64,000 nt of DNA, taken from the NCBI GenBank assembly GCA_024699855.1, contig JAMPIQ010000003.1:7130001-7194000 (forward strand), written 5' to 3'. The notes under the pieces are model-generated. The model worked only from the letters and a program-made list of their open reading frames with translations. It was not told the DNA's origin and searched no databases. Position 1 is the first letter of the stretch. Every line of letters starts with the position of its first letter. This document shows positions 24,071-28,939 of the stretch, in pieces. A program made the translations under genes and the position numbers. Source of the DNA: Aphelenchoides besseyi. Its lineage: Eukaryota > Nematoda > Chromadorea > Rhabditida > Aphelenchoididae.

Positions 24071-25878
24071 CCAAATCCAATGAACGTTTGTACCAGCCAA
24101 CGATCGCGAATAAAACTGCAGCCGGCAAATTTGGAACGGTGAAATCACAATCGTCTGTTCGACAAACTCGTACTTTCGAACGAACGTTGTGCCATCAAAA
24201 GAATCAGGTCAAACGGCGCTCTTCGGATTTTTGAACGAACTGTGTTGCAAGGTCATCAGTTTTGCGCCAATCGATTTTTGGGTATTGTTTCGTTGACATT
24301 ATGAAAATCAGTTCGCGTCGCTAATTGAACTACATCGAGAAGCCTCAAGCGGAAGTTTGTGCACAGTCCATCCATCTCTTGAAACTACTGAGCAAATCTG
24401 TTCGCCCGATTGTACGTCATAAACCGAAACAGCAACTGGTAGTTAGTGGGTTAAGTGCATTTCAATTGCAACACAAAGTACATACTCAGTAATTGCAAGA
24501 TGAATTTGAAAGCTGAAAACAATCTCATTGAACAAAACAAACATCTGATTTTGCAGAAAAAAATGCTCATAACTTCACAGGAAATCTACATAGCTTGTTC
24601 TTTTAGTTTCGACCGGAAATCCTTTTTAACACGTTTTGGATCCAATTTCTCTGGTTGTACATTTCTTTTAGAGTTTTCTCAGATTTCCATCATAACAGAC
24701 GTCCAAGAGAAAAGCGCTCAATCAAACTTCTTGACAGGTGATGGCCCCAACCGCAGAGGCAATTGATCTGAAACTCAATCGTTCAACTTCATAACGATCT
24801 GCCGAACATTTTCACACCTCAGACACTTCTGTTTTTTGCCAGAAATCCATGTCCAAGGCATACGTTCGGCCATCTGTTGGATCTCTGTACATTTGCCCAT
24901 TAATCTGTTCATATCCTCTTCATTATCTTAGTGGTAAATGTGGAACCTTTAGTTTTTCCGACCAAACTCATTTTCGAGCTTCTGAATCGTTGGAGGCGCC
25001 CTTGCTCATTGATTCCAGACCCTCGAGCTATTTTCAAAATGAAATATTACAACTTGTGAATACGAAACGCCGATTCATATGCCGGTTAGATGAATAAGAC
25101 AAAACGTCCAATTAATTCATCATCTAAGCCTTAAGCTTTGTAATCAGTTTGAATGCCGAGATGGAAAAGAAGAAATGTGTTGAAGCGAGAGAGCGGTTTT
25201 TGTTTATCGAAATGGTCATCATCTTCTGTTTCTTTTATCGATGTGAAATGTTTTGATACGCGAATTCGCAGAGTATTCAATCCAACAAACATTTTCGACG
25301 CTTCTTTCCGACTATCTCCTGTGAACTTTTCCGGTTTATCGTGCCGAAAAACACCGTATGGCAGCATTGAATTACCAGTTTCGTGTGCTGATTGTACACC
25401 AAGTGAAGAATTGAATTTTGAACTACGAATCTCCACAATAATGTTCACTTTTTCGGTTTCTGCAAACAACAATCTTCAGGCTCCATTCGTACGTGCAACT
25501 TTCTCCTTGTTTGTTGAGTTCTAATCCGCTTCGTTTAACTCAATTTCATAAATGCGGAACTGATTGGACAACATTTGCAACATCCGCGTCTACCACGAGA
25601 TTTGGTTTCTGACGGTAATCGAGTTATATGGTGGAACAATTGGCTTTGTCCGACGATTCTCTGCGGTTCGAACAAACTGCGATTGCATAAACGGGCATTT
25701 TAGTTTTTTCGTGTACTTCCCGTTCTTCTCGATTCCCTCGTGACTGTTTTTCTGAACTGTAGAGACGAGGAAAAGTCGTTAGCCGAAATGAGACGTGGTT
25801 TTATCCCTGAAAACAATTTAAATCGTTTTGAATAAACTCAATTACAGTCATTTCAGATTCCGTCATTCGATGTGAAGT
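24071..25878. other. Intergenic region with one possible exon
   Basis: About 1.8 kb between divergent genes. Open frames of about 115-120 codons overlap on both strands at 25131-25524, and a plus-strand block near 25550-25700 reads NAELIGQHLQHPRLPRDLVSDG. None could be tied to splice-linked exons or a family, so no gene is called. The 300 bp before 25879 should contain the receptor promoter. Confidence 0.3.
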
Positions 25879-28800
25879 ATGAGAAACAAGTTCTGTGTTC
25901 GGACACTTAGTCTCATTTTTGCCCTACTGATCATAACAACAGTAAGTGACGATTGTAAGTTCTAATGGCCATTTAGATTCCTGAATGCACGGCTGATGCG
26001 AGTTTGAAGTTGTACAATCATCTCTTCAAGAACTATCGCAAAGAAATTAGACCCGTAGATCCGCATAATCCTTGTATGTAAAAAAGCTTGCTCTGTTATT
26101 GAAATCAACAAACTTTAGCGCCCACAAATGTGACTGTTCAGTTGTTTCTCAAGCAAATACAAAACGTTCACGAATCGGATCAAATCATTAGTTTGTACTG
26201 TTGGTTGGAACTTTATTGGCAAGATTTCTATTTACGATGGAACGAGACCGAGTTCAACGGCACAAACGAAATCATTGTTCCTGCAAAAGAGGTCTGGCGT
26301 CCAGACCTGTTGGTGTATAACAAGTGAGTCGTAGACTACTCGGTTGTTAGCTGTTTGTTTAGCGCTCACATGAACATCGAAGATAATCAATTGGAGACCA
26401 ATGCTGTTATTAAAAGCGATGGACGTATTTCCGTTTATCGTGCCATGGTCACTCAAATTACTTGTCTTTTGAATATGTAAGCGATTATGACAGAGGATAA
26501 AGATAACTATTTCTTTAGGGACTCTTTTCCTTTTGGTACGTTTCAGTCAACTCGTTTTATCAACAACGTTGTTTAAGATCAACAAATTTGTTATGTGATG
26601 TTAAGGTAAGAATAATAAAAAACTAAGTTGTAATCTTTCAATAGTTCGTGGAGCTACGACGGAGCGGCGATTATGCTCCACACATTGGTTTCAACTGAAG
26701 CAGACAATCAACAAGCGGACCTTGAGAAGGTATCTTCCTTAGCGCATTACATGCCAAATCAAGAGGTTAGCATAGTCGGTTTGGAGTGATTACGCCAGTG
26801 ATTTTAGTGGCATTTGAATGACTTTAAGATTCGACGGAATTTAAAGTTTGTTTACTTGTTATTGTAGTGTCAATAATTGTACTGTTTTTTCGAGTTTATG
26901 AATGCTGTCCGAGCCCCTTTCCAGACTTAACGTATTTCTTTTCGATTCGCAGGAATCCCATGTACCGTAAAAGCTCATGCTAATGCTCTATGCTTCTAAT
27001 TCTCGACTTTTCCAAACAAATTTTCATGACAAAAGAAATAGTTTTTGCTCTTTTGGAACATTCGTCAATTAGAAGAGACTTTCAAAAAGAACAGTGCATT
27101 AATGAAGAGTTTGCAGGTACTATCTTTTCACACAAGCAAGTGGCTTTGCCCTTTTATACTTGGTCTCGACATTTCACTTCATGTAGTATACTTCCAAGTT
27201 ACTTGACCACATCACAATCTCTTTTTCGTTAATATCTTTAGATACACATTATTTGAGGTTTAAATGTCGGAGCACAAGTGTAGAAGAGCAATGTCGAATG
27301 ACCGTTTGCTACAGCTCTTACCGTCAACATTCATTTCGGTGGTAAAAATGTTTGTGCGATTCTAATGACTGTGAACTGTTTAGATCACTATGATTGGCTC
27401 TTTTACTCCTCATAATACCACTGGTGAAAACCAGGAGAAGGTCACGCGGCTAACTGCACTTTAACTACTCACCGAGTTTTTTATCGACTCATACATCAAT
27501 CGACTCCGCTTGTCAAGTCGAGTTCAACAGTACTAATTTTACCGTATGGGAACTACTCAGTAGAAAGTTATAACAGCAAATACCAAAATTCAAAAACCCC
27601 TGCAATATGGGTATCACACCGATGCCCATATTGTACAGGTGTCGTATATTTCGGCTTACCATGGCAAATTTTTACTGAGTAACTTCCGCAAGTTAAAATG
27701 GTATCATTGAACTCAACTCGACGAGCGGAGTCGATTGATGTATGCGTCGATGAAAAACTCGGTGAGTAGTTAAAGTGCAAGTTACGCAGGTCACACTTGG
27801 TGGTTCGTGTTTCTTTTGTTCTTAATCGTATAACAACATAAGCTGAATCGTGTATTCTTCAATCAATAGTTTTTGTTCAAAATTCTTGTCTTTCCACTAA
27901 AAATGTCGACTCTAAAACTACTGACATTCATCTGATTATGTTTAAACGAAGATTTTCAGCCACAGCCGGAATGGCTATTGTAATCATCTTAATGATGATT
28001 GCGGATAAACTGCCAGGTAGAACTTCAATCAAGTTTCTCTAATGAGTCCATTTAAAGCTACGAGCGAGACATTACCGTTGTTGGGAAAATTTTACGTCGG
28101 TAATCTGAAGTTGAACAACATAATCTAATCGACGTGTTTAGGTCTGATTCTGATGATATTCTTTGCCACTTGTTCGACCACATTCGTTCTAAGCGTTCAA
28201 ATGCGTGGCAATCGAGGAGAACCGCTTCCGAACTGGATTCGAGTTTGCATTCGACAATCCCGCTTGATGAGATGGATATTCAAGCACATCGACGGAAAGA
28301 AAAAAATTGTGAGTTCGTTTCCTGTGCTCAATTATCAGTTTTTCTACAGAAGACAAAAGACTGCTTGTGTATGAGCAGAAGTCGATCCAACTCGATTATT
28401 GCGAAGATAAACGGAGATTGCAAGCTGGTAAGTGTTAATATCGTAGTTGTTGTGATGTCGACCATGTTCGTAATCAGGAGAAACCATTGGTGTCCGAAAG
28501 TCAATCTGATTTCTCAGTTCACAAGTTGCAGTTTGCACCTCCATATACCGCATTCGGTGGTACCGACCCGAATTATCAACGTCTTCTTCAAACAATCAAC
28601 GATATTCGCTGTGCAAATCAATGCATAGCCGAACGCCTAGAAGCTGAACATCAGCTGAAAGAAATTCGACGTGATTGGGAGTATCTTGCACGAGGCATCG
28701 ATACACTTCTTCTTACTTTCTTCGTGTTCTTTAGTGTTCTCTACCAATTTTGGTTGTTTTCTCAAACCAATGTTGGCAAGTTAAAGGAGTTCAAATGTAA

Positions 28801-28939
28801 TTTCAAGTACGATTTCAGCTCCGTTGAAAATAACGGAAAGTTTTATGAACCTCACGTCAGCTGCTTAATCACACAGTTATTGTATTCTATTCCGATGAAA
28901 CACCATGGAAACACGTTTATTCTCGTGGTTTGTGTATGA
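25879..28939 (+). CDS. Cys-loop ligand-gated ion channel subunit, nicotinic type
   Basis: The ATG at 25879 begins a signal peptide (MRNKFCVRTLSLIFALLIITT). Exons then encode LYNHLFKNYRKEIRPV, WLELYWQDFYLRW, VWRPDLLVYN, the 13-residue Cys-loop (CLLNMDSFPFDQQIC, through a 17-nt microexon at about 26520), a loop C with vicinal cysteines (YECCPSPFPDLTYFFSIRR), M1 (LLPSTFISVITMIGSFTP), pre-M2/M2 (EKVTLG...AIVIILMMIADKLPATSE), M3, an M3-M4 loop and M4 (WEYLARGIDTLLLTFFVFF). The CC pair is the mark of agonist-binding alpha-type nicotinic subunits. The junction between RRNPMY (about 26962) and M1 was not resolved. The M2 exon is split by a palindromic transposon (27446-27787) that behaves as an intron, leaving a 13-nt exon at 27790-27802. 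The subunit would form a pentameric cation or anion channel at the plasma membrane; which ligand cannot be said. Confidence 0.85.
27446..27787. mobile_element. Palindromic MITE acting as an intron (introner-like)
   Basis: A 342-bp near-perfect palindrome. The left arm (27446 onward, GCGGCTAACTGCACTTTAAC) and the reverse complement of the right arm (GCGTAACTTGCACTTTAACT) align for about 150 bp, and a smaller hairpin (CAATATGGGTATC / GATGCCCATATTG) sits at the centre. It is flanked by 7-bp direct repeats AGGTCAC at 27439-27445 and 27788-27794, the expected target site duplication of a DNA transposon. The insertion falls inside a codon block for EKVTLG in the receptor's pre-M2 region. The AG|GT within each repeat gives a donor at 27441 and an acceptor at 27789 (TTACGCAG), so an intron of 349 nt restores the ancestral frame exactly. 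No transposase is encoded. Confidence 0.88.

Follow-up and report, generated by a model that had tools for sequence, protein, structure and literature searches.

A receptor gene interrupted by a palindrome

The window analysed here is a 64,000-nucleotide stretch of the genome of the nematode Aphelenchoides besseyi (assembly GCA_024699855.1, contig JAMPIQ010000003.1, positions 7,130,001 to 7,194,000). On its forward strand, at 25441-28865, lies a gene for an ACR-17-like subunit of the nicotinic acetylcholine receptor, the limits being those of the match to a deposited A. besseyi protein, P0002. Inside this gene is a palindromic element of 342 bp (27446-27787), bordered by two copies of the heptamer AGGTCAC (27439-27445 and 27788-27794); neither the element nor its arms or repeats are assigned a strand. 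The element is very probably a non-autonomous DNA transposon that entered an uninterrupted receptor exon, the flanking repeats having become the predicted splice sites of a 349-nt intron.

The identity of the host gene is clear from its joined exons, which match nematode ACR-17-like proteins (led by A. besseyi hits of 90% and 79% identity) and align with the solved alpha-6 and alpha-7 receptor chains (E 4.6e-55 and 6.2e-55) through EKVTL, M2 and M3. P0002, deposited as 'Acr-17', matches the window exons nearly residue for residue, and the motif EK[VI][TS]LG is unbroken in 35 of the 39 homologs listed, the other four giving no pattern match. A Pfam search with the first 95-aa joined fragment returned no family; that fragment lacked the ATSETLPLLGKFYV exon, and homology emerged with the full model. 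The deposited P0002 model itself seems wrong in places, having lost the ATSETLPLLGKFYV exon and shifted frame after KLP.

To locate the intron we removed in turn every stretch of at least 20 nt starting at 27404 or later and ending by 27802. Exactly ten removals restored the conserved peptide ENQEKVTLGATAGMAIVIILMMIADKLP, each of 349 nt and interchangeable with the others through the repeat; one alone, 27441-27789, has GT..AG ends. The predicted phase-0 intron (AG|GTCAC..GCAG|GTCAC, forward strand) thus consists of the element and one repeat copy: the AG|GT of the left copy is its donor, the AG of the right copy its acceptor, and the remaining GTCAC is coding. Frame and homology place around it, on the same strand, an upstream exon ending ...GENQEK| (27384-27440), a 13-nt exon GTCACACTTGGTG encoding VTLG plus one base (27790-27802), the skipping of which would lose the frame, a next intron of 157 nt that is not palindromic (27803-27959), and an exon with most of M2 (ATAGMAIVIILMMIADKLP; 27960-28016). 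P0002 holds ENQEKVTLGATAGM, joining EK|VTLG as predicted, so its annotators drew the identical splice. Were the element retained, the reading would run EKVTRLTAL and halt at a stop codon seven codons beyond the donor. Excision as 27441-27789, predicted from these data, is very likely. A first-pass annotation of the sequence had proposed this donor and acceptor, the reading EKVTLG after removal, the 13-nt exon and a broken channel should splicing fail, and in each of these it was right.

Probable insertion into continuous coding sequence

Aligned with its own reverse complement, the element is 76% identical over 339 columns with 10 gap positions; its outer arms are strong and its centre patchy, the 88-nt right arm (27692-27779) being 88% complementary to the 88-nt left arm (27455-27542). 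The full-length palindrome of the first-pass annotation therefore stands in size and extent, not in perfection of pairing, and its exact 7-bp repeats are indeed present. The inverted-repeat search (arms of at least 22 nt, up to 500 apart) listed five pairs in the window, two of them from this element; the longest arm among the others is 26 nt. RNA spanning 27431-27799 folds into a single long hairpin of -186.6 kcal/mol, compared with -81.7 ± 5.5 for 100 dinucleotide shuffles (z -19). Stop-to-stop reading frames overlapping the element reach at most 96 codons. Shortness, lack of a transposase, terminal inverted repeats, target-site duplication and dispersed copies, all seen here, are the features of a miniature inverted-repeat transposable element, the limit of 96 codons applying to the receptor copy only.

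That the coding sequence was once continuous at this point is indicated by paralogs. A search of the A. besseyi genome with the M1-M3 piece gave 17 matches, four from the host gene and 13 from elsewhere; seven of the 13 were read, and all seven run uninterrupted through the EK|VTLG position. Because the intron is missing from these paralogs and the repeat is exact, gain by insertion is favoured over invasion of an old intron, and arrival of the element with duplication of its target is highly likely. The neighbouring 157-nt intron is likewise absent from the seven stretches; it carries neither palindrome nor border repeat.

Removing the element leaves, of the predicted intron, exactly the 7-nt repeat, and an element-free site would read GAGAAGGTCACACTTGG. 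Insertion into the continuous exon would have duplicated AGGTCAC and, because the duplicated repeat contains AG|GT, the donor would come from the left copy and the acceptor from the right, so that removal of the element with one repeat would leave the coding sequence unchanged. The palindromic stem would bring the poor donor and the acceptor within 8 steps of each other, which may aid splicing.

The element might instead have jumped into an intron already standing at EK|VTLG, in which case it created no intron and the boundary repeat is a coincidence. Transposable elements commonly insert into introns, and one ordinary intron among our controls does show six of nine matching junction positions by chance. 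Yet no remnant of an older intron is left beside the element, where the median control intron measures 42 nt, and the paralogs read have none at this position; we consider such a history improbable.

A dispersed family of predicted element introns

Relatives of the element were sought with BLAST, using the receptor copy, an arm consensus and one further copy as queries, and with terminal-repeat patterns. The family comprises 17 places, 14 with BLAST support and spread over all three large contigs, and three (L022, L024 and L031) recognised only through terminal repeats that form an inverted pair. The background of the patterns was high (15 matches against 27 in the reversed control; 27 against 87), and a pattern match was kept only with BLAST support or an inverted partner. 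L027, L029, L030, L032 and L034 were dropped as chance matches, L033 as a small inverted pair with no placement, L074 for weak inverted matches 308 nt apart, and L090 (C3:445-491) as a short fragment. Alignment of 24 arms, drawn from 14 places, gives a terminal repeat near GAGTAACTGCACTTTAGCTACTC. Matches to the receptor copy are only 68-83% identical, so the family is likely old.

Six of the 17 copies lie at in-frame codon junctions, three have their donor within the terminal repeat, one (L012) is ambiguous and seven are not placed in a gene. The first-pass annotation had asked for such a genome-wide search, and had proposed the introner mechanism, in which mobile elements create introns; that copies occupy in-frame codon junctions in genes unrelated to one another accords with that proposal. 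It had also named, as a result that would count against it, copies lying mostly in intergenic DNA. The data do not show this, although with seven of the 17 copies not placed in a gene it may yet hold.

The six junction copies belong to the receptor, a legumain, a HECT ligase, a DNase II, an HRI kinase and a Tyr-rich protein, with intron limits at most 11 nt from the element ends (7, 9, 10, 14, 11 and 7 nt of intron outside the element); predicted removal keeps the frame in register in the five other than the receptor. The legumain copy (L010; TAT|GTATGTT..TTTTCAG|GGATGTT) joins SSY|GCYC, and at this site, judged at the protein level only, an unbroken SS[YW]GCYC-like motif (a loose pattern) occurs in 111 of 120 homologs, the best 120 of 2,529, the other nine giving no match. 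Its donor GTATGTT likely derives from an ancestral GGATGTT, perhaps through a later point change that created the GT. The HECT copy (L022; AAAG|GCAAG..TTAAG|GCGAA) joins QYK|GEYHARHPV between two sides that both match Pfam HECT (E 8e-31 and 5.7e-8); profile positions stop at 201 and resume at 208 across the intron, a gap of exactly the length of the six codons NAQYKG. The 42-nt intron preceding it in the same gene also starts with a GC donor. The HRI copy (L003; ACAG|GGAGG..TATAG|GGATA) joins HR|D. The DNase II copy (L016; CCAG|GTGAC..TTTTAG|GCGTT) has Pfam support in the downstream exon only (E 3.5e-16); an initial reading as an insertion within a larger intron was replaced, by inspection, with NDQ|HPG|VKTVDGRAHSKGV, which includes a 7-nt exon. 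The Tyr-rich copy (L006) reads CCGG|GTTCT..TATAG|GTATA.

The terminal repeat itself holds the donor in three more copies: GTAAAC in L049, whose gene is globin-like by reading, and GTAAGT in L024 and in L031, the gene of the latter being without homology support. The family may therefore make introns by two routes, one taking splice sites from the duplication and the other a GTAA.. donor already present in the terminal repeat. L012 is a 551-bp copy, at which TLIE|LELVFGRR stays in frame only if the intron ends are AA..AG or GT..AA. Pfam returned nothing for the DNase II upstream piece, two pieces of the L049 gene, one Tyr-rich piece and one L012 piece.

A survey of 3,325 genomes takes as its threshold, in the available part of its text, four or more introns of similar sequence found in different genes (PMC9860276). 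Five predicted introns here qualify as similar at E 9e-12 or better: relative to the receptor copy, BLAST gave E 1.7e-49 for HRI, 8.3e-25 for Tyr-rich, 1.4e-15 for legumain and 9e-12 for DNase II. Setting aside the doubtful HRI copy leaves four, the threshold itself. Terminal inverted repeats (the 24 aligned arms) and the 7-bp duplication are those of a DNA-type introner, and the receptor site, together with legumain at the protein level and HECT by its profile positions, adds insertion at a new position in formerly continuous coding sequence. As a whole the family is probably introner-like, and an old, low-copy introner family is the best explanation of the data.

How far the duplication made the splice sites varies among copies. 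The border repeat is an exact 7 bp at the receptor, degenerate in three other copies and not above control in two, so the claim that target duplication created both splice sites is clear for the receptor, fair for three others and without visible basis in the remaining two. The duplication can be read as 7 to 9 bp long. A 9-bp, Mutator-like duplication was raised by the legumain and HRI copies and set aside: 7 bp suits the receptor, and also legumain given the Trp in its homologs. Mutator and MULE elements duplicate about 9 bp. Three MULE transposase matches exist in the genome, and the single locus read (L099, C2:15490600-15496600) has an inverted repeat 228 bp long whose arms are 100% identical, possibly a recent element, without the terminal repeat of our family. 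With a 7-bp exact duplication and no linked transposase bearing the same terminal repeats at that locus, the family is not assigned to Mutator.

Controls, counter-evidence and known systems

Element introns were compared with 21 control introns, 19 of them 35-56 nt long and two of 153 and 157 nt (median 42 nt), which were taken from the receptor, legumain, HECT, DNase II, HRI, Tyr-rich and L024 genes. Matching positions at the two junctions were counted out of nine (four before, five after). The six junction copies scored 8, 6, 6, 4, 6 and 3 (mean 5.5), the controls a mean of 2.95 with a maximum of 6 (Mann-Whitney p = 0.003); for all nine element introns the mean was 4.9 (p = 0.005). All nine are also more stable than their shuffles, with z from -5.6 to -26.5, compared with +1.6, -0.3 and -5.3 for three long control introns, the last of which is palindromic. 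Predicted donors are GT in seven of the nine. The donors of L024 and L031 outscore all 21 controls, and those of HECT, the globin-like gene and legumain are ordinary, above 7, 11 and 14 of the 21; DNase II (-1.0), Tyr-rich (-1.3) and HRI (-0.3) each exceed a single control.

Several points tell against our interpretation. The receptor donor GTCACG scores -2.2 and beats only 1 of 21 control donors; the HECT copy needs a GC donor and the HRI copy would need GG. The HRI protein deposited for A. besseyi, P0040 (215 aa), begins downstream of the element, which means that its annotators did not splice it out; P0040 looks like an incomplete HRI kinase model, and HRI has either an unusual splice or a broken gene. 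Junctions were placed by eye, a practice that favours matches, and so were element ends. Left and right contexts paired across different element introns already give a junction score of 4.07, which means that the AG|G common to them accounts for part of the excess, and DNase II (4/9) and Tyr-rich (3/9) lie within the control range. Short introns are in truth a smaller share than the controls suggest, since at least three longer ones were omitted: two in the receptor, of 155 and 179 nt, and one of 174 nt in legumain. A 153-nt control intron folds strongly (z -5.3). Intron ends are 6-23 steps apart in the folds of element introns and 62, 21 and 9 in the long controls; the 9 belongs to the 174-nt intron, within the range of the element introns, and proximity of the ends does not by itself set element introns apart. 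Seven of the 17 copies (L005, L007, L008, L015, L018, L019 and L023) lack a gene placement, gene names and some frames are by-eye readings unless Pfam or homologs are given, and no transposase is linked to the family among the three MULE matches, at one of which the locus was read.

The weak receptor donor could also mean that the insertion is an unspliced, disabling mutation and the receptor gene a pseudogene, as perhaps is HRI, with no GT donor where one is needed and an incomplete deposited model. Against this, the modelled receptor exons are open and conserved to M4 (the exon border near 26853 aside), and the deposited protein model splices the element out; conserved exons beside diverged element arms make it likely that the insertion is old and has been tolerated. 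We hold a pseudogene to be about as improbable as insertion into an older intron. Inverted repeats can arise locally, and three of the 17 copies (L022, L024, L031) rest on high-background matches, but a hairpin formed in place by inverted duplication within an intron, the other copies being unrelated look-alikes, is very hard to reconcile with 14 BLAST-supported places on all three large contigs, alignable ends (24 arms) and a direct repeat bordering the insert.

A bolder reading, which we consider unlikely, is that the RNA stem and not the donor sequence guides splicing, so that donors can be GT or GC and, in HRI and L012, even GG and AA, making this an animal counterpart of the Amoebophrya hairpin introners, and that several palindrome families, including those of a 155-nt receptor and a 153-nt HRI intron, seeded many of the long introns.

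Returning to insertion of a mobile palindrome, the available text of the 3,325-genome survey describes families in which the duplication or neighbouring exon provides all or part of both splice sites (PMC9860276). Like its introners with terminal inverted repeats and target-site duplications, ours are non-autonomous DNA elements that have inverted repeats, are bordered by short duplications and form exact, here predicted, introns; unlike them, the A. besseyi element is one whole palindrome, from an old family of about 17 copies with varied donors. The introners of Amoebophrya, as described in the accessible portion of PMC7789003, share inverted repeats able to form hairpins that join the exon borders, direct repeats (3-5 nt) spanning those borders and unusual splice motifs; A. 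besseyi differs in being an animal, in its 342-bp palindrome and in GT as the predominant predicted donor. Symmetrical sister (stw)introns of Hypoxylaceae likewise form families with terminal inverted repeats (45-55 nt) at new positions, but without flanking duplications, and their authors, in the part of the paper available, exclude DNA transposition (PMC8469720). The Tm1 Mutator/Foldback element of root-knot nematodes resembles ours in its foldback structure, long inverted repeats and members like miniature inverted-repeat elements, and differs in its duplications of 8-10 bp (mostly 9 bp) and composite repeat ends; the available text gives it no intron role (PMC3169594).

The origin of new introns in animals, and above all in nematodes, has long been debated. 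The source sequences of Caenorhabditis intron gains detected in a 104-genome study were not found, according to its available text (PMC9169325). At the receptor, source sequence, duplication and predicted intron are all still readable, and such introns are conspicuous in a compact genome whose ordinary introns measure about 42 nt. Mobile DNA has probably made new introns in this worm, the relatives of the receptor element being likely introns in several other genes. In its accessible text the survey finds introners, among animals and land plants, in two groups only, both animal, and 6.5 times more frequently in aquatic organisms; 'nematod' does not occur in the portion of its main text available (PMC9860276). 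No nematode introner appeared among the matches listed in the openly licensed literature, and in the accessible text of a transposable-element survey of plant-parasitic nematodes 'palindrom' is absent and 'intron' occurs once, as a general mention (PMC11118728). If true, our reading would extend to a plant-parasitic nematode a phenomenon commoner in aquatic organisms, with a concrete case for testing whether a palindromic stem rescues weak splice sites.

Other long introns of the same genes have features of their own. The 153-nt HRI intron, which follows an 8-nt exon GGATATAA, is palindromic (the z of -5.3 above) and by eye unlike the family studied here. A second palindrome-bearing receptor intron, of 155 nt (26962-27116, forward strand; inverted pair 26993-27016/27052-27075, exons joined as in P0002), reads CCCAT|GTACCG..TTTGCAG|GTACTAT, with a palindromic core and GTAC both at its start and where coding resumes; it perhaps represents a second, older introner family. 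The 179-nt receptor intron at 27136-27314, after a microexon coding YYLFTQ, has an apparent GC donor (CAA|GCAAGT).
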